Virus record (IMG/VR): IMGVR_UViG_3300025264_000064
Span: 1-31,825 of that record
Strand: one strand, 5' to 3'
Origin: a virus
DNA: 31,825 bases
The notes below the pieces were generated by a model. The model did no database searches. It was given only the letters and a program-made list of their open reading frames with translations, and was not told the DNA's origin. Position 1 is the first letter of the stretch, and every line of letters begins with the position of its first letter. The position numbers were made by a program, and so were the translations under genes. Positions 1-19,922 of the stretch are shown in pieces.

Positions 1-332
1 TACGCGGTGACCACCTTTGCATCCGGGGCCGCGGCCACGACCCGAGCCAGGGACTGGCCTGAGCTTGGGATCTTGAACAGCGCGAGGTCGGTCTTCTCGT
101 CAGCAGCTACCCAACTGCCCTTCACCCTGCTCCCACTCTGCAGGATGACGTACACCGTGGTGCCAACCTTGCCAGAGCAGTGGGCTGCACTGACCCCATA
201 TGTGTGCTCCAGGTCGCGGTAGACCAGCGTGCCACTGCATCCACCGACCTGGACTGCCCCACGAGGGAGGAGGTTCGACGCGGGGACAGCCGAACACAAC
301 ACAAGAGCCAGCGCAGCCACTGCGAACCTCAT
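1..332 (-). CDS. Secreted trypsin-like serine protease, 3' end cut by window edge
   Basis: 110 residues are visible from an ATG at 332; the frame is still open at position 1. Residues 1-19 look like a Sec signal peptide: MRF, then a hydrophobic run, with AVPA-S as likely cleavage site. The mature part shows a chymotrypsin-fold N-terminal half: GCSGTLV (29-36), the catalytic-His motif SAAHC (His51), and the catalytic-Asp motif TDLALFK (Asp82). Cys32 and Cys52 are placed to form the usual disulfide beside the His. The catalytic Ser (GDSG) would lie beyond the window, so activity cannot be judged. The start abuts the stop of the holin-like gene (TAGATG), implying coupled translation. A role in lysis, in envelope damage or in cleaving exported proteins is inference from this position. 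The family call is firm; the function is open. Confidence 0.85.
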   Translation of the reverse strand, partial: MRFAVAALALVLCSAVPASNLLPRGAVQVGGCSGTLVYRDLEHTYGVSAAHCSGKVGTTVYVILQSGSRVKGSWVAADEKTDLALFKIPSSGQSLARVVAAAPDAKVVTA

Positions 333-545
333 CTACTCCTCCTTCTTCTTCTTCCTGCCGTTGGCCTGGATCATTGATCGGCCCGCCTCAAACCCGCCAA
401 CTACCAGCAATAGTTCGAGGATAGTGGTGATCTCCGTTTTGTCGAAGCTGGTGCTGTTGAGCCACAAAAACAGGGTGAGTCCGACGAAAATTACCGCGAG
501 TCGGATGATTCCCCAAACAGGATGCTTGCCATTGATCTCCACCAT
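333..545 (-). CDS. Small holin-like membrane protein, 70 aa
   Basis: A short N-terminal stretch is followed by a clear transmembrane helix (about residues 11-30, IIRLAVIFVGLTLFLWL). A second, weaker hydrophobic segment lies at about 40-54 (TILELLLVVGGF), and the tail is lysine-rich (RKKKKEE). Size, one or two membrane spans and a charged C-terminus fit class II-type phage holins, but these features are generic and no family motif is present. It comes immediately before an exported serine protease, which favours a lysis or envelope role. The start at 545 is set by a strong AAGGAGG Shine-Dalgarno, which sits in a small hairpin (separate entry). It could also be an unrelated small membrane protein such as a superinfection-exclusion factor. 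Confidence 0.6.
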   Translation of the reverse strand: MVEINGKHPVWGIIRLAVIFVGLTLFLWLNSTSFDKTEITTILELLLVVGGFEAGRSMIQANGRKKKKEE

Positions 546-546
546 G

Positions 547-560
547 TAACCTCCTTGTTA
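547..560 (-). promoter_or_regulatory. RBS hairpin of the holin-like gene, candidate CsrA site
   Basis: On the minus strand TAAC (560-557) and GTTA (550-547) pair perfectly around the hexaloop AAGGAG (556-551), one base before the ATG. GGA in a hexaloop over the Shine-Dalgarno is the classic CsrA-binding geometry. The run ACAAGGAGGT differs at one position from the ACARGGAUGU core of the known CsrA consensus. The hairpin is visible directly; binding by the phage CsrA encoded at 9079-9252 is inference. Confidence 0.5.
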
Positions 561-594
561 TAATCAGCCCTGGCCCGTCTCATCACGGATGACC

Positions 595-984
595 TCACGG
601 GGACGGATCCCCGGACGGGCCACCTACCACGACAATCTCCACACGGGGATCGTCCTTGTCAACATCGACCTCTGGCATCTGCGGCTTGAACCCGTAGTCA
701 TCAACACCCAGGGCCGCTGCTATCCCATCATAAGCGTATTTCAGCATCGCGGCCATGTTATCCCGATCGCGGCGACGACGGTCCTTGTAGTAGAATGTCG
801 CCTGCAGCTTCGCTTCAGACCAGTCAACGTCCCCCCGCCTCCGAGTCACAAGCTCTGTGAAACAGGCCACCCGACACGCTTCGCGGTACTTCTTCGAGTG
901 TTTATGACGGGTTCGCCAGTGGCAGCGTGAGTTAGGGCTCAGCTGCCTCGGAGGGAGGGGACAAACTACGGTGATCTGGTTCAT
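595..984 (-). CDS. rusA: RusA-like Holliday junction resolvase, 129 aa
   Basis: RusA enzymes are dimeric, metal-dependent endonucleases that resolve four-way DNA junctions. The family signature is visible: RRRRDRDN (69-76) with Asp73 and Asp75, Lys82, and GVDD (93-96), matching the acidic residues and lysine of the E. coli catalytic centre. The length is normal for the family (about 120 aa). The open frame extends upstream to 1200, but the start MNQITVV at 984 is chosen because it forms an ATGA overlap with the upstream zinc-finger gene and gives a standard RusA N-terminus (beta strand, then PLPPRQLSPNSR). With the Rad52-like and Gp157-like genes it completes a recombination set. A likely role is processing branched replication or packaging intermediates. 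The tail after residue 120 (GGPSGDPSP) is probably disordered. Confidence 0.85.
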   Translation of the reverse strand: MNQITVVCPLPPRQLSPNSRCHWRTRHKHSKKYREACRVACFTELVTRRRGDVDWSEAKLQATFYYKDRRRRDRDNMAAMLKYAYDGIAAALGVDDYGFKPQMPEVDVDKDDPRVEIVVVGGPSGDPSP

Positions 985-4063: not shown

Positions 4064-4303
4064 CTACTTCTTGTTTATGTCATCCAACGGTTCCCCTGTC
4101 CAAAGATCCAGTCCCGCGGTCTCCCGCTCGCTCATGACTTCAATCCACTGATCGTGGCCTGGGACCTTCCCACCGACCGTGTTCCGAGGCCCTGCAGCTG
4201 TCGACGCTGGGCGGTTCTGACCACCAACCGGATGACGATACGCCCCTATCACGTTCTGCATCAGCGGCAATATCTCCCGTGTCCCCGTCCAGTTCTTCCC
4301 CAT
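4064..4303 (-). CDS. Small hypothetical protein, 79 aa
   Basis: Unrecognised protein beginning MGKNWTGTREILPLMQNVIG, with a polar Gly/Pro-rich middle and an acidic tail (GEPLDDINKK). The start has one of the strongest Shine-Dalgarno sequences in the window (AAGGAGG, seven bases from ATG), which is the main reason to believe it. That RBS sits in a CGC/GCG hairpin (separate entry). It overlaps the 82-aa zinc-ribbon ORF by 164 bases in a different frame, so one of the two may be translated weakly or not at all. A GC-rich hairpin follows the stop. Confidence 0.6.
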   Translation of the reverse strand: MGKNWTGTREILPLMQNVIGAYRHPVGGQNRPASTAAGPRNTVGGKVPGHDQWIEVMSERETAGLDLWTGEPLDDINKK

Positions 4304-8606: not shown

Positions 8607-9092
8607 CTACCTGATCCGAAGAGATGTACTCTTCACTAGTTCGCATCCTGGGACCAACTCCCCTTCCTTCAGCGAGGTGAGGATCGCTGACTTCAACACC
8701 TTGACATCACCCTGCTCCAGGTACCTCGGGGGGATCACCGCCTGGTCGACGACTTCCACCCTGCCCGGGGTCTCAGCGACTCGCACTGTAAAAAGGTCAT
8801 CCTTGACCAAGTCCATCTCCATACCGACCATCTGGTCGTGGACATAGCTCTTCAGCCAGACCGCCTTCCCCTTGAAGGACTGCTGCTTACCCTTCAGCCG
8901 GTCGATCTCCGCACCCACTGCAGCCACCGAGGACTCAAGCTCCTTGATGACCTTCACGCAGTTGACCACCTTCTCCTTGAAGCTGCCACCAAGGTGCTTG
9001 AGTTCCCCCAGCAACTCATGGCTGAGACCCCCCTCCTCGGTGGCCAGCTGCACGAGCTTGTCCATCTCCTGGGGATACTCATACAGCTTCAT
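8607..9092 (-). CDS. Siphovirus Gp157-family protein, 161 aa
   Basis: The family pattern runs through the whole protein: KLYEYPQEMDKL at the N-terminus, the coiled-coil FKEKVVNCVKVIKELESSVA (38-57), EIDRLKGKQQSFKGKAVWLKSYV (62-84), and the beta-rich end with IPPRYLEQGDVK, LKEGELVPGCEL and TSLRIR. Gp157-type proteins occur beside phage annealing proteins and SSBs in many recombination modules. Their biochemical role is poorly known; early work linked Gp157 to host resistance to phage. The start at 9092 has a good AAGGAG eight bases upstream and lies 14 bases inside csrA, so it is the second gene of the transcript. Confidence 0.88.
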   Translation of the reverse strand: MKLYEYPQEMDKLVQLATEEGGLSHELLGELKHLGGSFKEKVVNCVKVIKELESSVAAVGAEIDRLKGKQQSFKGKAVWLKSYVHDQMVGMEMDLVKDDLFTVRVAETPGRVEVVDQAVIPPRYLEQGDVKVLKSAILTSLKEGELVPGCELVKSTSLRIR

Positions 9093-9252
9093 CGACCCGC
9101 TCCTTCCCCACCAACTCGTCCCGCAGGATCTTCACGTTGTCAGGGGCATCAACGCCCAAGCGAACGAAGTTGCCGTGCAATTCCAGCACGGTGACCGTGA
9201 TCTCCCCATCCAGGACAATCGACTCGCCTTCCCTTCTACTCAACACCAGCAT
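9079..9252 (-). CDS. csrA: CsrA/RsmA global RNA-binding regulator, 57 aa
   Basis: CsrA is a small homodimer that binds GGA-containing hairpin loops in mRNA leaders, usually blocking or sometimes activating translation. The match is full length: MLVLSRREGESIVLDGEITV, then TVLELHGNFVRLGVDAP, then VKILRDEL. The RNA-binding residues are kept: Leu4, Arg6, Arg7 and, at exactly the E. coli position, Arg44 (in LRDEL). The dimer core strands are intact and only the flexible C-terminal tail is short. The start at 9252 has AAGGAG seven bases upstream; the open frame reaching 9321 begins with TTG and adds residues foreign to the family. It is the first gene after a strong candidate promoter, so it may set the timing of the module or retarget host CsrA circuits. 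Confidence 0.95.
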   Translation of the reverse strand: MLVLSRREGESIVLDGEITVTVLELHGNFVRLGVDAPDNVKILRDELVGKERVDEAV

Positions 9253-9346: not shown

Positions 9347-9385
9347 ACCACTACGAGAAAGTGGTGGTAAAGTTACCACCACTTT
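9346..9385 (-). terminator. Hairpin pair at the end of the giant gene, possible terminator or attenuator
   Basis: AAAGTGGTGGTAA (9358-9370) and TTACCACCACTTT (9373-9385) are perfect inverted repeats, allowing a 12-bp stem with a 4-nt loop that includes part of the TAA stop at 9384-9386. In the minus-strand RNA the second arm can instead pair with AGTGGTG (9352-9346), giving a 7-bp stem with a 7-nt loop. The two hairpins are mutually exclusive. The T stretch after the first (TTTCTC) is weak. A moderate, perhaps bidirectional, terminator is likely; switching is inference. Confidence 0.55.
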
Positions 9386-12300
9386 AGGGGTACACGATCT
9401 TCGCGGCGCGTCGTCGCTGGTAGAGGGACTCTATCCGCTTCGCTGGCGTCGCGTCCTCGATATCCGGGAAGCCACGCATGAGCAGGCTCTTTGCGCTTTT
9501 TCGCTGCTTGTAGAGCTTGTCTCGCAGCTTGTCGCCCTCTGCGATGTTCCCCTGCTCGTAGGCCCGGAACATCCGCATCTCCCTTTCTTCACGCTCCAGC
9601 ATGGTCGACTCCATCCGGAACGGATCCCTGTCCAGTCGCATGGTGTCGATGTTCTCCAGGGCACTCTCGGCCAACTCGGAGGCCTTGTTGCTGATCTCTC
9701 TCCGCTTCGTCTCGTCCTTGGTCATGGCACGGATGTGGAACAGGAGGCTGACCGCCCGGGTCGCGTCACCCAGCAGCATGTATTCCCTGTTCTCTTCAGG
9801 CGTCTCGGATCTCACCCGATCACCATGCCTCGTGTAGACAAACTCCCAGACATCGTAGAGTTCGTTGACGGGCCTGGTACGCGACCCAGCCTTGCCGCCC
9901 CTGCGGAATACTCTCCCGAGGATCGGGACATCGCTGAAGGACTGCAGCTTCTTCCCGGTGAACAACTGGTCCAGGGATTGACCCGCCATCAGGTAGTCCC
10001 TTGCCGCCGGCCCCGCGACCGAGGTGATGGCATGATCGACTTCCACTGGTGACATCCCCGCGAGATTGGCCAACCACCTAGCGGCCACCGTGGTGTACTC
10101 GTTGTACTGCTGCTCCCGCGGAATACGGTCCCTTCCACCCGGGCCAAGGAACGCGGAGGAGACCACGGGAGTCCCGAAGTAGGACTTCCGATTCATCCCC
10201 AGTTCCATCACCGTCTGCCAGCCCTTGCCCAGGGCACTGCTCGGGGCAACCTTCATCCGTTCAAAGTCCCACGGGATGTCTACCGGACTGTGGCTCTCCG
10301 CGATCGTGAAAGCATAATCTTGAAGCTCGGCCCATTTCAGGACCTCGTCCGGTTCACGCCTGTACCATGCGTCGAGGAACGCCACGGCCAGACCTGCGAA
10401 CAGCTGGCCTGAATCGTGAGCCATCGGGATCATTACCACCACATCCTCGCCAAGGATGTTCGTCGGGTAGAACATGTAGAGGAACTTCTCCCGGGCATTC
10501 AGCCGGATCCACCAGTCCTCGTCCTTGTTCCTGAACCAGTTGGCGATGGCCAACCCGGCAAGCTGCAGGCCACGGGTGGCAAAGTGGACTGGCCCCGTGG
10601 GGACTCCTGCCAGTTTTCCCATACGCACTGGTCGTCTGGCTGCACGGATCGCAGCCCTGGGCCCCTGTATCGCCGCGTTGAAGAACGGGACGTACTGGTT
10701 GTAGGCACGGGATATGTCCCCAGCTGCCGTGAAGTCCACGGTCACCTGCTTCCCTGCAAGGATCAGATGCTGGGCAATCTCCGGGGTCATCGTGTCACCA
10801 GGCTTCCAGCCTATCTCCGCGGCGATCGTCCTGATCTCGGCCATTCGCGTGGCAGACTCGGGGAACTGGAGGAAGTCTTTCCAGAACGAGAGGAATGACT
10901 TCCAATCGTTCCACAGGTGCCTGGGGATCCTCGCCGGATCGGTGACGTAGCGAACGACACGCTTCCCGATGTTCTTCGACAACAGCACGTCACGCGCCGA
11001 CTGGGCCACGAGGTCCGTATCCTGCGCTAGCGGGAGTGCCATACGCCCACCCAGCCGCAACCACAGCTTGCTGTATTTCGACCTGACCCTGCCCCCGGTG
11101 ATCGCTGAAACGAACTCCTCACCAAACGACAACACGAAGTTGGTGAACAGCGTGAGACCGTTGGCACTGCTTGCCGTGTTCAGGTACAGCGTCTGGAAGT
11201 CACGCAGCGGGTTGGTCACCAGCCCGAACGAGGCCCGGAACCCAACGGTGCCTGCACGGAACAGCCGAGCGGTATGCCGCGGCATGATCCCGATAATGTC
11301 GACCGCCCACCGAGCCCAGTTGTTCTTTCGCAAGAACTCCAGCCCATCCGCACTCATGCTCTGGACCGCCTGGTAGATGGCCGGCTCCATCTTGTACCAG
11401 CGGACGGTCCCGGACTCGTCCATCACCGGGATGATCGGCTCGCCTGACTTCGGGGTGAGGGCGAGACCGTAGAACTCGATCATCTTGTTCTCGAAGTCGA
11501 CCTCGTCCAACTCCATCGGCAGTCCACGTTTGTCGGTGATCTGCGGATCCAGGCCCTTCCCCTTCAGGTCGGCCCACACCTGCTTCGCGGTGGACTCAAT
11601 CCTCGCAGCGTGTTTCAGTTCCTTGCCACGCACCTCCTGGAAGATCAGGTTGCCGAACCCGAGCGGTTCACCGAGCTTGTCGCTGAAGCCCCCGGCCATT
11701 GAAATCATCGACATGACAACCTTCCGGTTGTGTGCGGCAAGGATCAGCCTCTCCGCGTTCGATATGGCCGTCTGGATGGGGTCCACAACCGAGATGAGCT
11801 TGGAACCCTTGAGCGCGTCGAAGACATCCGTGTAGCTGACGCGGGGTCCACCGTGCTGGGCAAGTGCAAGGTTCATTGTCCGCATGTAACGGCGAAGCGG
11901 AGCGTAGTCACCACGCTCTTCTTCCTTCCTCCGGATCCTCTCGACGATCGCCCCAAAGAACGGATCGGCTTCCGCGACGTACTGCAGTACCCCGTCATTC
12001 CACCTGTAGAAGATGTCCGCACCAGCCCCGAACCGACCGCGATCCGACCCGGGTAGCGGGTACATCTTCTCAAGTTTGTCGATGATCTTGGTCGCCTGCA
12101 ACTCGGTCATCGGGGTTTCAAGCGGATCCGGCTCCCTGCTGGTGACGTTGCCGTCTTCATCCCATGTCATCTTCTCGTTATGGATCAGCTTCAGGGAGCG
12201 ACGGGCCACGAGGTAGATGGTGAAATCCTCGTAGTCCTTCGGCTTGACGAATTTCTCCATCTGGGCCAGGGAGACCCCGCCTTTCACGAGGTCCCGGGCG

Positions 12301-15300
12301 AAGTTCACCATCCCGTCATTCACCATCTGGTGAACAACAGCCGAATGCTGCAGCCTCAGTGCCTGGCCCCACATGTACGGGCTCTTGTCTCTCGCGAGCT
12401 TCTTGCCCGTGGTTTTCTCGTACTGCATCTCGAACAACTCAAGCGGCTGCAGCGAGTCGACGAATTGCCTGACCAGCATGTTAGGAGCCAGCCGCATCAT
12501 GTCCTTGAACTCTTGGTACCGCACCTCAAGTGACGCGGGATCCACCACGAGGTTAGCCCGAGCCCAGTTCAGCAGGCCCTGGTCCCTAGCACTGGTGACC
12601 ATCCCGGCTATCCGGTTCATCTCCTTCAGTGCCTTGCGACCATTCGGTCTCCCGGCCACCGTGGTCTCGAACCACTTGAGAGCGTTTGGTGCCTTGTCCT
12701 GAACCTCAGCCCTGTTCTCCAGGTACAGGCGGATGAACTCGGCAAACCCTTCTCTCGCAAGTCCACCCTTGGGCTTCTTACCCTCGCCCCACAGGTCGAC
12801 CCCCAGCTGCTTCAACTCCTCGACAACCTCCTTGCCGACTGCCGCGGACTTCCACGGGCTGGTCCTGCTGATCTTCCCGCTTACTGGGTCCTCCACCAAT
12901 CCGGTGCCGAAGATCAACACCTCGATGGCATGCCCGATCTCGTGGAACGCGGTGAGCATATCGTCCGCGTTCCGGATCTTCACCATCAACTCTTGCCAGT
13001 AGGTCTCTCCAAGAGCACCAGGCGACTTCATGGTCCCGGTCTGGATCGGGAAGTCGGTGACTCCCTTGTACCCGAACAGCCTGGGCAGCTTGGATAGCCG
13101 GCGGATGATACTCCAGATCGCGATCGGGCGACCACTCCCGGCTCGCGGGTCCTCGTGGGTCCAGAAGTCGTGTACACCAGGCACTGCCCCAGCTGGAAGC
13201 TCAGCAGGCGGGCGGGCTACATCAATGAGCCTCGGCTCACCCTCTTCCGGGATCACTTCTCCAGCTGCAGGTCTCCTTGGCCGCGGAGGCGACGGGTCTG
13301 CACCAAACAAGCCTTCCTCTTCCGCCGCCCCGGGGGCTGGCTCCACCTCAGACGCCTGCGTGAAGCCGGATTCGTGGACTGCCAGATACCAGTCCGCATC
13401 CGCGACTTCGCCAAAGCCGGGATCGAACTTCCCGCCCTCGATTACCTTCACCGTCGACACGCCCTTACCCAAGAACTCGCCCTGCCTGAACGCCTCGACA
13501 TCTATTCCTTGCCAAACTTCAACCGGCATCGGATCAGCGAACTTGTACTTGCTGATTGCTTTTGCAAGATCCTTGGCCTTTTGTCTGGTCTTCTCGTTTT
13601 TGATGTTGTCAAATGGGTAGTTGGCGTATTCCGATAGTTGGCCCGCCGCGTCTTTGGATTCAACAGGCACACCAAACTTGTTGTACTTGGCCGCAGAGGC
13701 AACAACGAACTGTATCCAATCGTGGTGCGCGAATGTTCGTATGCGTTCATTGATTATCAGGGCTGGCGTTACGCCCGTCTTTGTTGTCCTGTCATAGTCC
13801 CCGGCCCACACTGTGGCCTCTGCGAAGTCGGTGGTGAAGTACACCCCAAAGGTGTCCATCATCGGGTCGCCCGTCCTCACAAGTGCGCCAGCCTTCAACT
13901 TGCCATGAGTGTCCGGGTCGTATGTCTGGCTGCCGTGCCACACGATCAGCGGCTCACCGTTCTCGTCACGGACTACATCGTCCCTGCCTTCTGCCCAGGC
14001 CAGCAGCTTGTCTACCTTCGCCTGCTCTGCTGGGCTAAGACCCTCTTCCGCCGCCTCGGCCCGTTCTTGATCAACAGCTTCTATGATCGTTGCCAATTCC
14101 GCTGCTTGCTGGGGAGGAAGATCGCCCGAGGCCGCGAACTCGTCTAGGTCGACGCCCATATCTTCCAATTCTGCACCGAATGCAAAGTAGAGTGCATCCT
14201 CCTCGGCTTTTTTTCTGTTGTCCGTTTCTTCAAAAACGACAAAGACCCCTTGCTGTTCTATCGCCTCCCATATGAAGTGTGTGCCCATTAGGTCCTCGTG
14301 GAGTTCGACGACCAGCACATCGATCTCGTTGTTCCCAGGCTGCTCCACAAGAATATGATCAAGGTGATCCACCCCGTACTTTTCGAGGCCAAGCAGCACG
14401 GTCAGCAGTTCGCCGTTACCCACCTCATCGGAGGCAATCTCTTGAAATTCCTCCGGGGTCATCTCCAGCAACGATATCTCTTCCTCGCCCAGCGAGGTCA
14501 CGTCCACTGGAGACTTGTACCCCGGTTCGTTCCGCCTGGATTGCGCATTTTTCAACAGTAGGTTCATCGTGAAATGGGGATGGCCGAAAGAACCAAGCCC
14601 TCCCGGCCAGCGAAACTCCAAGACGGTCATCCAGATCTCAAGCCTTGCTCGCCTGTGCCTGAAGGATGCCTCGTTCAGGGTTTGCTGTCTCAGGTCCTCA
14701 CCGCCCTCCTTGAACGCGGCTTCTACCTGGCGGTCCATCTCATCGATACGGTCCATTATCCCCATCAGCTGTACGGTCAGTTCCTCTTCCTGTCGCTCGA
14801 TCTCCTCATCGGTGAAGCCCTGGCTATCCGCTTCCTCGGTGGTCTCGCCCTTCGCAGGCATGTCCTCCTTGGGGAGCACGTCCGCGAAAAAGGCTCGTGC
14901 ATCCTTGGGGCCCTTTACCACGATCTCCTGGCCTATCTTGATCAGCTGGGTGACATCGTCTTTGAGATTGGTAATCTCTTCCGCCACGTCGGTCAGACCG
15001 AACTTCTCTTTGATCGTGTCTTGAAGCTCCTCATTCCCCTCAAGGTAGGCCCTGATGCTCTCGACGAGACGCGGGGCCACGGTTGCGTCCTTCTCTTCCG
15101 CTTCCTGCAGGGCCTGCGCATCGGCCACAGCCTTGTCCTCGCGAGCAAACTTCGCCGCAACAGGTTGGTGTTCCACTGAAAAGTCGGCACCCTCCCTCAC
15201 CGGGACACCCAGGGCCCCACCGATCGTCTCGGGAATCGGACCAGCGTCCTCGGCAAACATCCCTCCCTTTTCGGTTTTGAGAGTGGAGGCGAGTCCCTTG

Positions 15301-18300
15301 AACTTCTTCCTCAGCTTGATGGGGAACTTCCAACCCTTTCCCTCTTCCCTCAGCCCGACCAGGAGATCGAGCATCATCCTGCCTTGAGGACTGATCCACC
15401 ATGTGGATCCTGGCTCAAGCTCTCCGAACAGGTCTCGCCCAATACGCAACTCGACACTTTCCCGGGAGATGGCAGTGTCCTTGTGCCGTGCGATCCATTC
15501 CACAGCCTCGATCAATGCCGCGGTCGTGTCGTATTGCGGGTAGCTTCTTTCTATGGCAAGCAACTCGGGGACTACCCCGATCATGTTGCCCAGGAGATCC
15601 TTGACACCCTCGGTCTGTCGCAGGGTGTTGATCAACTCCACCGGGAACGCATGGGCGACAAACATGTCCCTGACCAATTCGCGGCCCTTCTCGTTCAGCG
15701 TCCCGTCTTTATTGAAATACTCGTTCCGCTGACTCGCCGGCATCCGGCCCCTGAGCTTCTTACGGAAGTCCTTTGCCTTGTCCCCGGAAATCAATGCCTT
15801 GATCGTGTCACCTGACTCTAAGTCCAGCAGCTTGGTCAGGTCCTCGTCAAAGATCATTGATGCGTATGACGCTGCAATCTCCGCGGGGCTTTGGGCCTGG
15901 GCGGTCCCGATGTTTCCCAATCGGGCAAACGTCTTGGCTTCAGGCGACTCGGGGTGCATGTCAACAACACGGACCAGCACGGGCCGGGACATCTCAGAGA
16001 CCTGCTCCTCGGTCAGGCCGTATGTTTCCGCGTTGTCCTGGAGGTGCTGCTCGTACCACTCGCCGTATGCAACCTGCAGGGTCATAACCCTGCCGTTCCC
16101 ATTGATCACAAGCCCTTCCGGGGTGACCGTTGGTGGCCCATCAAGAGGAGTCGCGACGTTGTTGATGTAATACTCTGGCACCTTTTGCTCGGCATGCCTC
16201 GCCACCTTGGCACTGCCTATGCTCTGGGGGTCTTCAGTGTAATCATGTCGCGGCTGCAGGTTGTCAGGGTAGTTCCGGTTCCTGAGAGCGGATACGCCCC
16301 CAAGCTCGTTCATCGTGGCATCGTGGCTGGGGGTCAGATCACCCAGAGATACGATCGCATACGTCGCAGGTATCCGCCTCGTCTTTTCGCCATCCTGTAC
16401 CAGGACCTCCGCCGTATCCCCCTCGACCATCTCACGCTTGGTGTACTGCTTCGGGGCTGCCTCTTCTCTCTTGTAGACATCCTTTACTAGTTCCCCGGCA
16501 TCCGTGTAGTCTTTCTTCGCGAGAAGCTCGTCGACCTTTTCGGTGGCCGCATCCTCGGAAAGCCCTTGCTGCCGCAATGCCAGGATGGCGTCACCCCTAA
16601 TGTCCGTTGGCAGTTCTACGTTGGGCGAAAAAATGATGATTTCTTCCAACGTCAGTAACTCAGGTGCAGCCTCACGCATCACTTGTGCAACTCTTGCAGC
16701 TGCCTCATCCGGGCTATACCCCAAGTCTTCCAAAGCCTGCCTTGCTTGATCGGCCAAATCCCCTTCCGCCGCCGCGGGGGCTGCTGGCTTGGAAAGAAAG
16801 TCCGCTAGTGCCGCCTCTGCCTTAGCCTTTGTCTTGAACTTCTTGCGCCGTAATTCCTCTGGCAAGCCAGTTTGTAAAAAATCATGCTTGTCGGCTTTTG
16901 GGCTAGGATCCGGCCTGCTGATAATCCAGAAAACGTTCTCGTAATTGCCCTGCGAGCGCACGTTCCACCCCAATGGGTTGACAGCTGCACCGCCCTCTTC
17001 CGCCGCCGCGGGGGCTGGCTTCTTCCTCCCCTTCTTGGGCTTCTCGGGAAGAGTGTCCGCTAGTGCTTCCCATTCGTCTGCAGCGAACTCTAGCACCGAA
17101 TCCATCGCGTGCTGGTAGACTTTGATTTCAGGGTCTGATCCCTGAATAGAAATCCCTCTAGCTCGGTCCTCGTGATCGAACACTATCTTGCTGTCCGGGA
17201 GATGTTTTCTGATCGAATCGAACAGCTGTTGGAATTGCTCGGGAGTTTGTGTGAACGGTTCCGTCTCGCCTGGCAGACTTGTCGAATCTAATACTCGGTC
17301 CTCGGCATGTTGCCACAGGGTCCGCCAGAATGCTCTTCGCTGCTCCCAAGTCATCTCCTCGATCTTGGGCTGGCCCTTCTTCTTAGGCTTCTTGGGGATG
17401 TCTTTCTTTTTTATGCCAGGGACTTCGCTGATCCTCCCTTTCGCTGGGAACAGCTGGTTAAACAACTCCCTGGATCGCGACCTAATCCTGTGAATCCTGG
17501 CTTCTGGTGTTGCGGCCACCGGGGCCTCAGCAGCCGCGTCCCCCGGAACCGGCAGGCCAAGGTCACGGAGAAAGTCACGCGCCGACTCGGCGTGAGGGTG
17601 TGCCTCTTTCCACGCTTCCCTAACAGCAGAAGCAAAATCTTCGGGATTATCAAAGTCACCCTCCTCGTGGACCTTCTCTGCTATTCCTTTCAGGCCAGCC
17701 TTAGCTGCCTCAACATCGTACCCCTCCGTCTCCTCTGGAGGCATGTCATCAAAAGAACTGTCTATCGCTTCCAAGACCGGCTGCAATAGATCCTCAGCCA
17801 CCGGGGCCTCAGGCTCAGCTGCTGCGGGACTGACTAGCTCAAGGGTCTTGTTTTCACCATCGATAACTGTTGTCTCGGCTTCACCTGGAAGCTGCACCTC
17901 CAGGTTCCCGTTATCAAGAACCCTGACAACCTCCCCAGTTTTCACAGCCTTCTTTGGACCTGACTTGACCGTGTCACCCACCTGCCACTCCCGTGCGGGT
18001 TCTTCCGCCGGGGTGGTGGGATCCTCGGCCACCGGCTCGGCCTGCTCACCCCCCTCGATCACGCCCTGCAGTCTCTCACGCACAGCTTCAAGAAGATCGT
18101 CTTGATCTACATAAGCCTGCTGGGCTGCGACCTCGTCAATGACTGGCCCGATCTGCTCTGCGAGAGCCGGGTACTGCTGCGCTATTGCCTCGCCAAGCGG
18201 ACCCGTAGCGAAGCTCTCCTTCAGCTTTCTCACCATCTCCGGATCGGTTTCCTCCACGTCCTCCACGTCCGCGAGAACCCCCTCATCCTCCACAACAGCA

Positions 18301-19922
18301 GGACCCTCTACCGGCTCTTCTGCTGGCTTTTCGACCCCGAAGTGTTCCTTGTACCGTTGCCTCTGCCCCTCCAGCTGAGCCTCGGCCAGCGGGGCCACCC
18401 AGTTGTCTGCCATCCACTTGCGGTGGTGCGCTTCTTTCGGATCCAACTCCTGCGGAGTCAGGTTGTCCCAGTCCACCTCTTCGGTATCCGCGTCCTTCGT
18501 CGGGAGGTCGTAGGTCTCCCCGATGATCGGGAGCGGAGAGGTTGCCAGGGGAGTCCCGTCCTTCTCCTCGGTGAGCGCACGGTAATTCCCTTCAATCTTG
18601 TTCCAGGCAGTCCGTGACGGGTTCTTGCCGAACTGCTCCATCTTCTCGATCGGAGCCTTCTTGAATGCCGTGATCGCACCAGGTGCCCTCATCCCCCCAC
18701 CGACCAGCGAGAATGCGTAGAACTCAATCTCAATCTGCTCCCACGCCTTGGCTCTCTCCTTGGGATCATCACTGAACAGCCGGCCCGTGGTCCCGAAGTC
18801 GTCATCGATACGGGAGAGACCTCTCGCAATATCAACCAGTCGCTCTTCCTCGATCTCCTCGAAGATACCGTGCCAGCCAACCTTGTTCTTCAGGGCAAGG
18901 AAGTGGGCCATTCTCGACCTGGGATTCTTGATGAGCCACTTACTGGCCGCGGCCTCCATCATCTTCTTGATGCCGGCCTTCTTCGCGAGGTATCCAGTGA
19001 CGTACTTCGCGCCTATTCCCCCGGACATCTCCGAGGCAAGCTCGAAGTAAGCACCCAGGGGCCCTTGCCACATCGCCTTTACAAACGCTTCCTCGTCCCC
19101 CTGCAATGCGTGATGCAAGGCCCGCTCACTGGTTTGCTCAGCGATCAACTGCGGGTTCAATGCGGTGAGGGCAGCAGATCCAGCGAGAAACCCTGCGCCC
19201 TTGATAGCAGCCCTCGGGAGTAGCTTACGCTTGGCAACACCCTTCACCTTTTCCTTCAGGAACCTCACACCCATCTTCCGCAGCTGGCCGAGCAGCATCT
19301 TCTGAGTGCCCTTGGACACTGCAGTGTATCCGCCGCCCGTGAGCCCGATCTCGACGAAGAACCCCGGCATCTGAGCCGCAAGTTCCATGACCCTATCCAG
19401 CTTGTTCAATTCCCCCTCGCGTTCAAGCTCGGCATAAAACTCACCGATCAGGCGGGCCCCATCCTCCGTTCGGAGCCCCTCAACTTCCCACTCGTAAGCG
19501 GCCATCGCGGTGTCCATGAGGCGGTTTCCGGTAATGAATCCGGAGAACGGCATCCCCTCGGCAACTCGCCGCCCTCTTCCGCCAAGACCAGTTTCACCGA
19601 ACCAGTCCACCTCCTCGGTACGCGCCCTATTCTTGTTCTGCTCGACAAGATCTTTGAACTCATCCTCACCCAGCTTCCTGAACAGGCGAGTGGATTCAAG
19701 CTCCTTGCGGCCAGGGACATCCTCCATTAACGGCTTGGAGCGGTCGGCCCAATCTAGCCGTCCGGTATCCTCGGGAAAGAATTCTTCTGGCGGCAGGTCT
19801 CTAGCCACTGGTGGCGGTGGCGGTGGCGGTTCCTGTGCCTCCTCAAGAACCTCTTCCGCCTCGGCAAACGGATCGGGAGACGGCTGGAAGCCACTTAGCA
19901 CTGCCCACTCTGGAGGACTCAT
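9384..19922 (-). CDS. Giant mosaic virion/ejection protein with ParB-like, ART-like and zinc-metallopeptidase domains, 3512 aa
   Basis: A 'polyvalent' phage protein whose modules are joined by Ala/Pro/Glu linkers. Seen in order: a helical N-terminal third after a seven-proline run (32-38), with a hydrophobic stretch at about 240-265; a KOW/SH3-like piece (645-695, VGDTVKSGP); a basic helical domain (800-960); UBA/RuvA-C-like helices (1050-1165, LEDLGYSPDEAAARV); a DdrB-like ParB domain (1185-1340) with SHD at His1200 and NGNGR 1274-1278; coiled coil (about 1600-1720); an ADP-ribosyltransferase-like domain (1985-2150) with VWHGS (His1996) and FGVYFTT (2025); a metallopeptidase with HEIGH 2327-2331 and a downstream Glu2395 in GFAEF; and an LPD38-like C-terminus (about 2800-3512; FNAAIQGPR near 3080). 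As the last gene of the structural operon it is probably packaged and injected, modifying host DNA or proteins. Domain calls are by motif; order and delivery are inferred. Start 19922 has AGGGG upstream. Confidence 0.9.
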   Translation of the reverse strand: MSPPEWAVLSGFQPSPDPFAEAEEVLEEAQEPPPPPPPVARDLPPEEFFPEDTGRLDWADRSKPLMEDVPGRKELESTRLFRKLGEDEFKDLVEQNKNRARTEEVDWFGETGLGGRGRRVAEGMPFSGFITGNRLMDTAMAAYEWEVEGLRTEDGARLIGEFYAELEREGELNKLDRVMELAAQMPGFFVEIGLTGGGYTAVSKGTQKMLLGQLRKMGVRFLKEKVKGVAKRKLLPRAAIKGAGFLAGSAALTALNPQLIAEQTSERALHHALQGDEEAFVKAMWQGPLGAYFELASEMSGGIGAKYVTGYLAKKAGIKKMMEAAASKWLIKNPRSRMAHFLALKNKVGWHGIFEEIEEERLVDIARGLSRIDDDFGTTGRLFSDDPKERAKAWEQIEIEFYAFSLVGGGMRAPGAITAFKKAPIEKMEQFGKNPSRTAWNKIEGNYRALTEEKDGTPLATSPLPIIGETYDLPTKDADTEEVDWDNLTPQELDPKEAHHRKWMADNWVAPLAEAQLEGQRQRYKEHFGVEKPAEEPVEGPAVVEDEGVLADVEDVEETDPEMVRKLKESFATGPLGEAIAQQYPALAEQIGPVIDEVAAQQAYVDQDDLLEAVRERLQGVIEGGEQAEPVAEDPTTPAEEPAREWQVGDTVKSGPKKAVKTGEVVRVLDNGNLEVQLPGEAETTVIDGENKTLELVSPAAAEPEAPVAEDLLQPVLEAIDSSFDDMPPEETEGYDVEAAKAGLKGIAEKVHEEGDFDNPEDFASAVREAWKEAHPHAESARDFLRDLGLPVPGDAAAEAPVAATPEARIHRIRSRSRELFNQLFPAKGRISEVPGIKKKDIPKKPKKKGQPKIEEMTWEQRRAFWRTLWQHAEDRVLDSTSLPGETEPFTQTPEQFQQLFDSIRKHLPDSKIVFDHEDRARGISIQGSDPEIKVYQHAMDSVLEFAADEWEALADTLPEKPKKGRKKPAPAAAEEGGAAVNPLGWNVRSQGNYENVFWIISRPDPSPKADKHDFLQTGLPEELRRKKFKTKAKAEAALADFLSKPAAPAAAEGDLADQARQALEDLGYSPDEAAARVAQVMREAAPELLTLEEIIIFSPNVELPTDIRGDAILALRQQGLSEDAATEKVDELLAKKDYTDAGELVKDVYKREEAAPKQYTKREMVEGDTAEVLVQDGEKTRRIPATYAIVSLGDLTPSHDATMNELGGVSALRNRNYPDNLQPRHDYTEDPQSIGSAKVARHAEQKVPEYYINNVATPLDGPPTVTPEGLVINGNGRVMTLQVAYGEWYEQHLQDNAETYGLTEEQVSEMSRPVLVRVVDMHPESPEAKTFARLGNIGTAQAQSPAEIAASYASMIFDEDLTKLLDLESGDTIKALISGDKAKDFRKKLRGRMPASQRNEYFNKDGTLNEKGRELVRDMFVAHAFPVELINTLRQTEGVKDLLGNMIGVVPELLAIERSYPQYDTTAALIEAVEWIARHKDTAISRESVELRIGRDLFGELEPGSTWWISPQGRMMLDLLVGLREEGKGWKFPIKLRKKFKGLASTLKTEKGGMFAEDAGPIPETIGGALGVPVREGADFSVEHQPVAAKFAREDKAVADAQALQEAEEKDATVAPRLVESIRAYLEGNEELQDTIKEKFGLTDVAEEITNLKDDVTQLIKIGQEIVVKGPKDARAFFADVLPKEDMPAKGETTEEADSQGFTDEEIERQEEELTVQLMGIMDRIDEMDRQVEAAFKEGGEDLRQQTLNEASFRHRRARLEIWMTVLEFRWPGGLGSFGHPHFTMNLLLKNAQSRRNEPGYKSPVDVTSLGEEEISLLEMTPEEFQEIASDEVGNGELLTVLLGLEKYGVDHLDHILVEQPGNNEIDVLVVELHEDLMGTHFIWEAIEQQGVFVVFEETDNRKKAEEDALYFAFGAELEDMGVDLDEFAASGDLPPQQAAELATIIEAVDQERAEAAEEGLSPAEQAKVDKLLAWAEGRDDVVRDENGEPLIVWHGSQTYDPDTHGKLKAGALVRTGDPMMDTFGVYFTTDFAEATVWAGDYDRTTKTGVTPALIINERIRTFAHHDWIQFVVASAAKYNKFGVPVESKDAAGQLSEYANYPFDNIKNEKTRQKAKDLAKAISKYKFADPMPVEVWQGIDVEAFRQGEFLGKGVSTVKVIEGGKFDPGFGEVADADWYLAVHESGFTQASEVEPAPGAAEEEGLFGADPSPPRPRRPAAGEVIPEEGEPRLIDVARPPAELPAGAVPGVHDFWTHEDPRAGSGRPIAIWSIIRRLSKLPRLFGYKGVTDFPIQTGTMKSPGALGETYWQELMVKIRNADDMLTAFHEIGHAIEVLIFGTGLVEDPVSGKISRTSPWKSAAVGKEVVEELKQLGVDLWGEGKKPKGGLAREGFAEFIRLYLENRAEVQDKAPNALKWFETTVAGRPNGRKALKEMNRIAGMVTSARDQGLLNWARANLVVDPASLEVRYQEFKDMMRLAPNMLVRQFVDSLQPLELFEMQYEKTTGKKLARDKSPYMWGQALRLQHSAVVHQMVNDGMVNFARDLVKGGVSLAQMEKFVKPKDYEDFTIYLVARRSLKLIHNEKMTWDEDGNVTSREPDPLETPMTELQATKIIDKLEKMYPLPGSDRGRFGAGADIFYRWNDGVLQYVAEADPFFGAIVERIRRKEEERGDYAPLRRYMRTMNLALAQHGGPRVSYTDVFDALKGSKLISVVDPIQTAISNAERLILAAHNRKVVMSMISMAGGFSDKLGEPLGFGNLIFQEVRGKELKHAARIESTAKQVWADLKGKGLDPQITDKRGLPMELDEVDFENKMIEFYGLALTPKSGEPIIPVMDESGTVRWYKMEPAIYQAVQSMSADGLEFLRKNNWARWAVDIIGIMPRHTARLFRAGTVGFRASFGLVTNPLRDFQTLYLNTASSANGLTLFTNFVLSFGEEFVSAITGGRVRSKYSKLWLRLGGRMALPLAQDTDLVAQSARDVLLSKNIGKRVVRYVTDPARIPRHLWNDWKSFLSFWKDFLQFPESATRMAEIRTIAAEIGWKPGDTMTPEIAQHLILAGKQVTVDFTAAGDISRAYNQYVPFFNAAIQGPRAAIRAARRPVRMGKLAGVPTGPVHFATRGLQLAGLAIANWFRNKDEDWWIRLNAREKFLYMFYPTNILGEDVVVMIPMAHDSGQLFAGLAVAFLDAWYRREPDEVLKWAELQDYAFTIAESHSPVDIPWDFERMKVAPSSALGKGWQTVMELGMNRKSYFGTPVVSSAFLGPGGRDRIPREQQYNEYTTVAARWLANLAGMSPVEVDHAITSVAGPAARDYLMAGQSLDQLFTGKKLQSFSDVPILGRVFRRGGKAGSRTRPVNELYDVWEFVYTRHGDRVRSETPEENREYMLLGDATRAVSLLFHIRAMTKDETKRREISNKASELAESALENIDTMRLDRDPFRMESTMLEREEREMRMFRAYEQGNIAEGDKLRDKLYKQRKSAKSLLMRGFPDIEDATPAKRIESLYQRRRAAKIVYP
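13316..13342 (-). repeat. Linker repeat copy in the giant gene (third copy)
   Basis: A 27-base copy of the CTCTTCCGCCGCC...GGGGGCTGGCT word, differing from the copy at 16995-17021 by one or two bases. It encodes the Ala/Pro linker (EPAPGAAEEE) between the ART-like and metallopeptidase domains, near residue 2197. Confidence 0.7.
16762..17021 (-). repeat. Two linker repeats flanking a 65-residue module of the giant gene
   Basis: Near-identical GC-rich words occur at 16762-16790 and 16995-17021, both reading CTTCCGCCGCCGCGGGGGCT. They encode Pro/Ala/Glu linkers (PAPAAAEE, PAAPAAAEG) on each side of a small domain at residues about 980-1045. Identity at DNA level, not only protein level, suggests recent copying. 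Confidence 0.7.
17515..17812 (-). repeat. Second linker repeat pair in the giant gene
   Basis: The 16-base word GCCACCGGGGCCTCAG is present at 17515-17530 and 17797-17812, encoding the EAPVA linker at residues near 705 and 800. The helical module DLLQPVLEAIDSS...LRDLGLPVPG lies between them. A related GCCACCGG word occurs near 18030. Confidence 0.6.

Follow-up and report, generated by a model that had tools for sequence, protein, structure and literature searches.

A candidate CsrA-decoy RNA antisense to the leader of a holin-like gene in a csrA-bearing phage

There are CsrA-repressed mRNA leaders in which the Shine-Dalgarno (SD) sequence lies in the GGA loop of a hairpin. A sequence-only reading of a phage genome had placed the SD of a holin-like gene in such a hairpin, and had proposed that lysis (holin plus protease) is held off until CsrA is titrated or diluted. 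Does CsrA act at this locus, and is the hairpin at the ribosome-binding site (RBS) the element concerned? The window, which is the whole stretch of DNA analysed, is one entire virus record of 31,825 nt. Its comparison with related virus records, designated here by L numbers, points to a different element, a small RNA on the opposite strand that is probably a decoy for CsrA.

The locus and the SD hairpin of the holin-like gene

The minus strand holds nearly all plausible genes of the window. From right to left, the gene order at the site is an HNH-like gene, a RusA-like Holliday junction resolvase gene (595–984, minus strand; phrog_34, E=4.8e-14), an ORF encoding a holin-like membrane protein of 70 aa (333–545, minus strand) and a gene for a trypsin-like protease with a signal-like N terminus, which is cut by the record end (1–332, minus strand; PF13365, E=3e-5, below the cut-off). 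A full-length homologue of the protease in L034 matched PF13365 with E=4.3e-7. The 70-aa protein matched the holin family phrog_3427 with E=0.03, a match given by 2 of 11 homologues, and a search of Pfam gave no match; as judged from these comparisons, its assignment as a holin is weakly supported. Homologues were present in 23 other virus records and none was found in the genome contigs and the annotated phage collection searched; the family is known from metagenomic virus records only. A role in lysis is uncertain, since the protein is weakly holin-like and the genes that could be identified next to it encode a trypsin-like protease and an SNase.

Some features of these genomes were recorded on the side. 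The full-length protease homologue downstream of the holin-like gene in L034 (L034:10210–11058) carries a short collagen-like GPPGPAGPAGRDG stretch, and the genes next after it include the SNase, with no endolysin among the identified neighbours. In the window, one ORF of 3512 aa (9384–19922, minus strand) matched only PHROG families of unknown function (phrog_5143 and others), and a 162-aa phage protein (7276–7764, minus strand) has an RNA polymerase alpha C-terminal-like domain (PF03118, E=1.3e-6).

The letters of the reported hairpin are present, as TAAC-AAGGAG-GTTA on the minus strand from 560 to 547, followed by a C and by the ATG at 545; the hairpin is 1 nt from the ATG of the holin-like gene, and the same phage does encode CsrA (see below). 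Its description as a textbook CsrA-type hairpin did not hold. Folded alone, the SD hairpin reached -0.5 kcal/mol, and it was not part of the minimum free energy (MFE) structure in a context of 46–121 nt. A hexaloop on a stem of at least 4 bp surrounds 26 of 964 minus-strand GGAs (2.7%), and such a stem was found at 8 of 121 SD-bearing starts (6.6%; seven related loci), in two of the eight by Watson-Crick pairs only. At this frequency, one SD stem is expected by chance per genome of about 25 genes.

Covariation of the stem in related phages gave a divided answer. The holin-like gene is the only gene for which an SD stem recurs in orthologues: the stem is 4 bp long in the window and in L008, L012 and L035, while in L005 (ATAC/GTAT) and L028 (ATCG/CGAT) different bases form it anew. 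Elsewhere the stem is lost, being down to 0–2 bp in L027, L029, L030 and L055–L059, and among these L027, L030 and L056–L059 carry csrA. L027, L030, L056 and L058 are relatives that retain csrA without the SD stem, the situation that the sequence-only reading had itself set against its proposal. An SD stem-loop conserved together with csrA, which would mark a CsrA-repressed leader, was not found. On sequence grounds, this loss refutes a stem linked to csrA; it does not bear on whether CsrA binds the SD at all.

The 5' arm of the hairpin, TAAC, is the reverse complement of part of an extended -10 promoter, TGTTATAAT, on the plus strand, and its conservation is explained at least in part by this promoter, which is made of the same bases read in reverse. 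L030 keeps the promoter (8/8) yet loses the SD stem. We consider it doubtful that the minus-strand TAAC[AAGGAG]GTTA is a CsrA site that keeps the holin-like gene untranslated for as long as CsrA stays high: the stem is weak and lineage-specific and its 5' arm is accounted for by the promoter, although the loop A(A/G)GGAG and the C-G closing pair recur in clade A and a 2-bp C-G/G-C stem is retained in L055–L059, in addition to the paired changes above. This model is compatible with a decoy RNA on the other strand, and the CAAGGA of the holin RBS could be bound by CsrA as a site that is weak or lacks a stem. The suggestion of CsrA biology at this spot survives in that CsrA-type motifs are present and titration may matter; the feature that is supported lies on the opposite strand.

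A promoter and a structured RNA element on the plus strand

The extended -10 promoter TGTTATAAT (556–564, plus strand) matches TGnTATAAT at 8/8 positions. It is directed opposite to the holin-like gene, and the first stem of the RNA element follows 7 nt after it. The match is also 8/8 in L004, L026, L031, L033, L035 and the distant L030, and 7/8 in L037 and L055–L059. L005 has a shifted form, TATAAT with TG directly adjacent, and the promoter is weak (5/8) in L027–L029. Across relatives, the spacing between the extended -10 and the first stem is 4–9 nt, with a match of 7–8/8 in most. The site escaped a scan for consensus promoters, in which a -35 is required.

When the holin leaders from 23 virus records were compared, strong conservation was observed upstream of the SD, together with paired changes between distant letters. 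The structured core (572–621, plus strand; fold z=-2.9; covariance model CM R1) is closed by the stem P1 (572–579/614–621), of which GGCCCGUC is the 5' strand; P1 encloses UCAUCACGGAUGA, which forms hairpin P3, and hairpin P2. P3 (580–592, plus strand) has a CACGGAUG core, with ACGGAU at 585–590. Its most stable form in the window is a 5-bp stem with a triloop, UCAUC-ACG-GAUGA in the MFE structure, in which part of the GGA is paired. P2 (598–613, plus strand) is CGGGG[ACGGAU]CCCCG, with an ANGGAN hexaloop. Owing to the shortness of P3, the element was not picked up by a simple scan for pairs of strong ANGGA hairpins.

In 12 distinct relatives, representing about five lineages, the stems are almost wholly changed and ANGGA or AGGA is kept in both hairpins. 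All 12 have two ANGGA-bearing hairpins per element; in the window the motif of P2 is in the loop and that of P3 is partly paired in the MFE structure. The P3 motif appears as AGUC[ACGGAA]GACU in L005, AUGGAU in L031 and L033, AGGGAU in L028 and L055, and AGGAU in L027. The stem sequence of P2 differs completely between clades and its loop A(N)GGAN is constant (12/12 distinct relatives). At the same position, the other clades have a first stem enclosing an ANGGA or AGGA hairpin, followed by a second long hairpin with the loop A(N)GGAN: GGGCAGAC[AGGAU]GUCUGCCC in L028, GGGUGGCA[AGGGAC]UGCCACCC in L029 and GGUGGGCC[ACGGAC]GGCCCGCC-GAUUUUUU in L055 and L056. P1 encloses both hairpins in clade A, and only the first in clades B and C. 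CM R1 misses clades B and C and CM R2 misses clade A; because the covariance models do not cross-detect, the homology of clade A with clades B and C rests on synteny and motif.

All nine representatives folded better than their shuffles (z -2.2 to -4.0). In the clade A alignment, three pairs of P1 changed on both sides, some pair changes being shared by descent, so that independent events are fewer than these counts. A U-tract terminator follows P2 in L029 and in L055–L059 (clade C), and is weaker in L027 and L028; none was found in the window, nor in its own clade.

The rarity of the arrangement was measured with descriptors. They were written after the family had been seen, and their counts are a measure of rarity elsewhere, not of the odds of discovery. 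The promoter descriptor (extended -10, ANGGA site and ANGGAN hairpin) gave 10 matches in 196 kb of family loci (10/14 loci) and none of them lay away from this site. Other csrA phages (739 kb) and rusA controls (598 kb) had no match, and the wider control set of 703 kb had one. The terminator descriptor matched in five family loci, only at this site, and nowhere else. An A(N)GGAN loop is found in 0.8% of stable hairpins with loops of 5–6 nt in general. An Rfam scan of the window gave no match above the gathering score, and the best sub-threshold match was unrelated. A match in L110 (E=0.0068) was set aside, as its context is different and it looks like chance.

Phage CsrA and the putative role of the RNA

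The phage csrA gene (9079–9252, minus strand; PF02599, E=1.5e-21) encodes a member of the CsrA family, with scores of 71.9 and 73.3 bits against PF02599, for which the curated cut-off is 27. The protein was aligned to the solved Escherichia coli CsrA over residues 1–51, with L4, R6, R7 and R44 kept, including the RNA-contact residues L4 and R44; the R44A substitution nearly abolishes RsmA binding (PMC4066749). csrA was found in 11 of the 23 holin-bearing records, i.e. in every one that reaches the csrA position (11/11), the other 12 contigs stopping short of it. In the loci examined, control phages with a related rusA had neither csrA nor the holin-like gene, and none gave a convincing match to the RNA. 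In L009 (IMGVR_UViG_3300025277_002504, an 18.8-kb record), csrA is 100% identical to that of the window and the entire upstream block is kept; after the HNH gene, other genes replace rusA, the candidate decoy RNA and the holin-like gene, the latter two being missing together.

Other SDs resembling CsrA sites were seen. In clade C, csrA has its own SD in UAUC[ACGGAG]GAUG just 5' of the ATG (L058:4490–4530), a possible site of CsrA autoregulation. Such a site was also considered for the family as a whole and was rejected, the csrA SD in clade A having no real stem (0–2 bp). In the window, the SD of a small ORF (4064–4303, minus strand, start at 4303) lies in CGC[AAGGAG]GCG (3 bp), another possible CsrA-like site.

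The promoter, the conserved fold, the strand, the conserved ANGGA motifs and the co-occurrence with csrA can all be read from the sequences. We consider it likely that the element is a small plus-strand phage RNA acting as a CsrB/RsmY-like decoy for CsrA, antisense to the holin-like leader and divergent from the gene. We infer its transcription, its binding and titration of CsrA and its targets as follows. A sigma70-type RNA polymerase would transcribe the RNA from the extended -10, which shares bases with the RBS of the divergently oriented holin-like gene, giving a structured core of about 50 nt with a start near 571–573. The closing stem and the two hairpins would present two ANGGA sites, as many as a single CsrA dimer requires. 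The decoy (molecular mimic, sponge) would lower the free CsrA of the phage or of the host, and CsrA-bound mRNAs would be relieved, possibly including the holin-like/protease message, whose SD adjoins the decoy RNA. Several observations count against a decoy: there are only two sites, compared with many in CsrB; in the window, the most stable form of P3 pairs some of its GGA; in clade A, P2 is also under constraint from rusA codons, with which part of the element overlaps; the window's clade has no U-tract terminator, and L027, L028 and L029 have a weak promoter; and L009 has csrA without the RNA or the holin-like gene in its record.

A decoy might be directed at the CsrA/RsmA of the host instead of the phage's own protein. 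Csr governs host physiology and CRISPR-Cas expression in Serratia (PMC8450108), and the promoter is of host type. The presence of csrA in every family record covering its position argues for the phage protein, as do the csrA-lacking rusA phages, which were examined and were without such an RNA; a host target is on balance unlikely.

The RNA is necessarily complementary to the 3' end of rusA and to the holin leader, and its promoter lies on the holin RBS; it might then pair or interfere in cis with the rusA-holin mRNA, the ANGGA loops being incidental. However, pure antisense action needs no conserved ANGGA loops amid changing stems, and the elements of clades B and C lie outside rusA with the motif still kept. 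This explanation seems to us improbable.

The strand was deduced from the pairs themselves. Hand-marked helices contain 160 Watson-Crick pairs, eight G.U pairs on the plus strand and none on the minus strand; on the other strand, all eight wobbles would be A.C. In the clade A alignment, 96.3% of cells were paired on the plus strand and 92.5% on the minus strand, with a clear drop when the partners were slid. CM R1 scored 78.8 bits on the plus strand and 13 bits on the minus strand, the model having been built from the plus strand. It is very improbable that the element is instead a minus-strand mRNA leader whose UCC loops cover the GGA of the SD by pairing with it: reverse-complement loops (UCCG/UCC), complementary to GGA, are present in all members and the folding energy is similar on both strands, but the tolerated wobbles, the model scores, the promoter and the U-tracts all favour the plus strand, and such a leader would need no conserved A flanking the GGA.

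The decoy RNA could act by relieving phage mRNAs to which phage CsrA is bound, through the host Csr system, or in cis as an antisense RNA to the rusA-holin message. More tentatively, the locus may form a self-contained phage Csr switch, in which phage CsrA would repress the holin-like/protease message and a decoy antisense to its leader, driven by a promoter interlocked with its RBS, would titrate CsrA, timing lysis or another late step. Reports of csrA in phages go back years, with neither targets nor a partner in control known for it. If the decoy reading is correct, viruses carry a two-part regulator, with the CsrA protein and a titrating RNA in the same genomes, and the RNA would offer a direct entry to the purpose of phage CsrA. 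Its small size, predicted start site and pair of defined motifs lend themselves to quick testing.

Comparison with known Csr systems

The RBS of the holin-like gene resembles such CsrA-repressed leaders in that its AAGGAG may form a hexaloop closed by a C-G pair. Unlike them, its stem is weak and is lost in csrA-bearing relatives, with no second upstream minus-strand site shown.

csrA/rsmA genes are known in phages, for example in the Pseudomonas phages F116 and phi297 (PMC7366521, PMC8450108). As in the present window, these phages encode a PF02599 protein, but those reports cover the protein only. The covariance models and descriptors detected no such RNA in the examined loci around csrA of F116, phi297 and other csrA phages. 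In the open-access full-text literature, we found phage csrA and no phage Csr decoy RNA.

What defines a Csr/Rsm mimic RNA is that its short hairpins expose ANGGA (PMC7366521), and RsmA is bound by an RsmZ hairpin whose loop contains AAGGAU (PMC4066749). Compared with CsrB/CsrC and RsmX/RsmY/RsmZ, the phage element is short (about 50–65 nt), has two sites rather than many and is viral; in addition, it is antisense to its neighbour gene, with which it shares the RBS DNA, and it has no Rfam match. It resembles them in being a structured RNA with its own predicted sigma70-type promoter and several ANGGA hairpins, the last of which doubles as a predicted terminator in some relatives, in a genome that has csrA. 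Although it stands outside the described RNA families, as tested with Rfam, the element appears to work like CsrB and RsmY.
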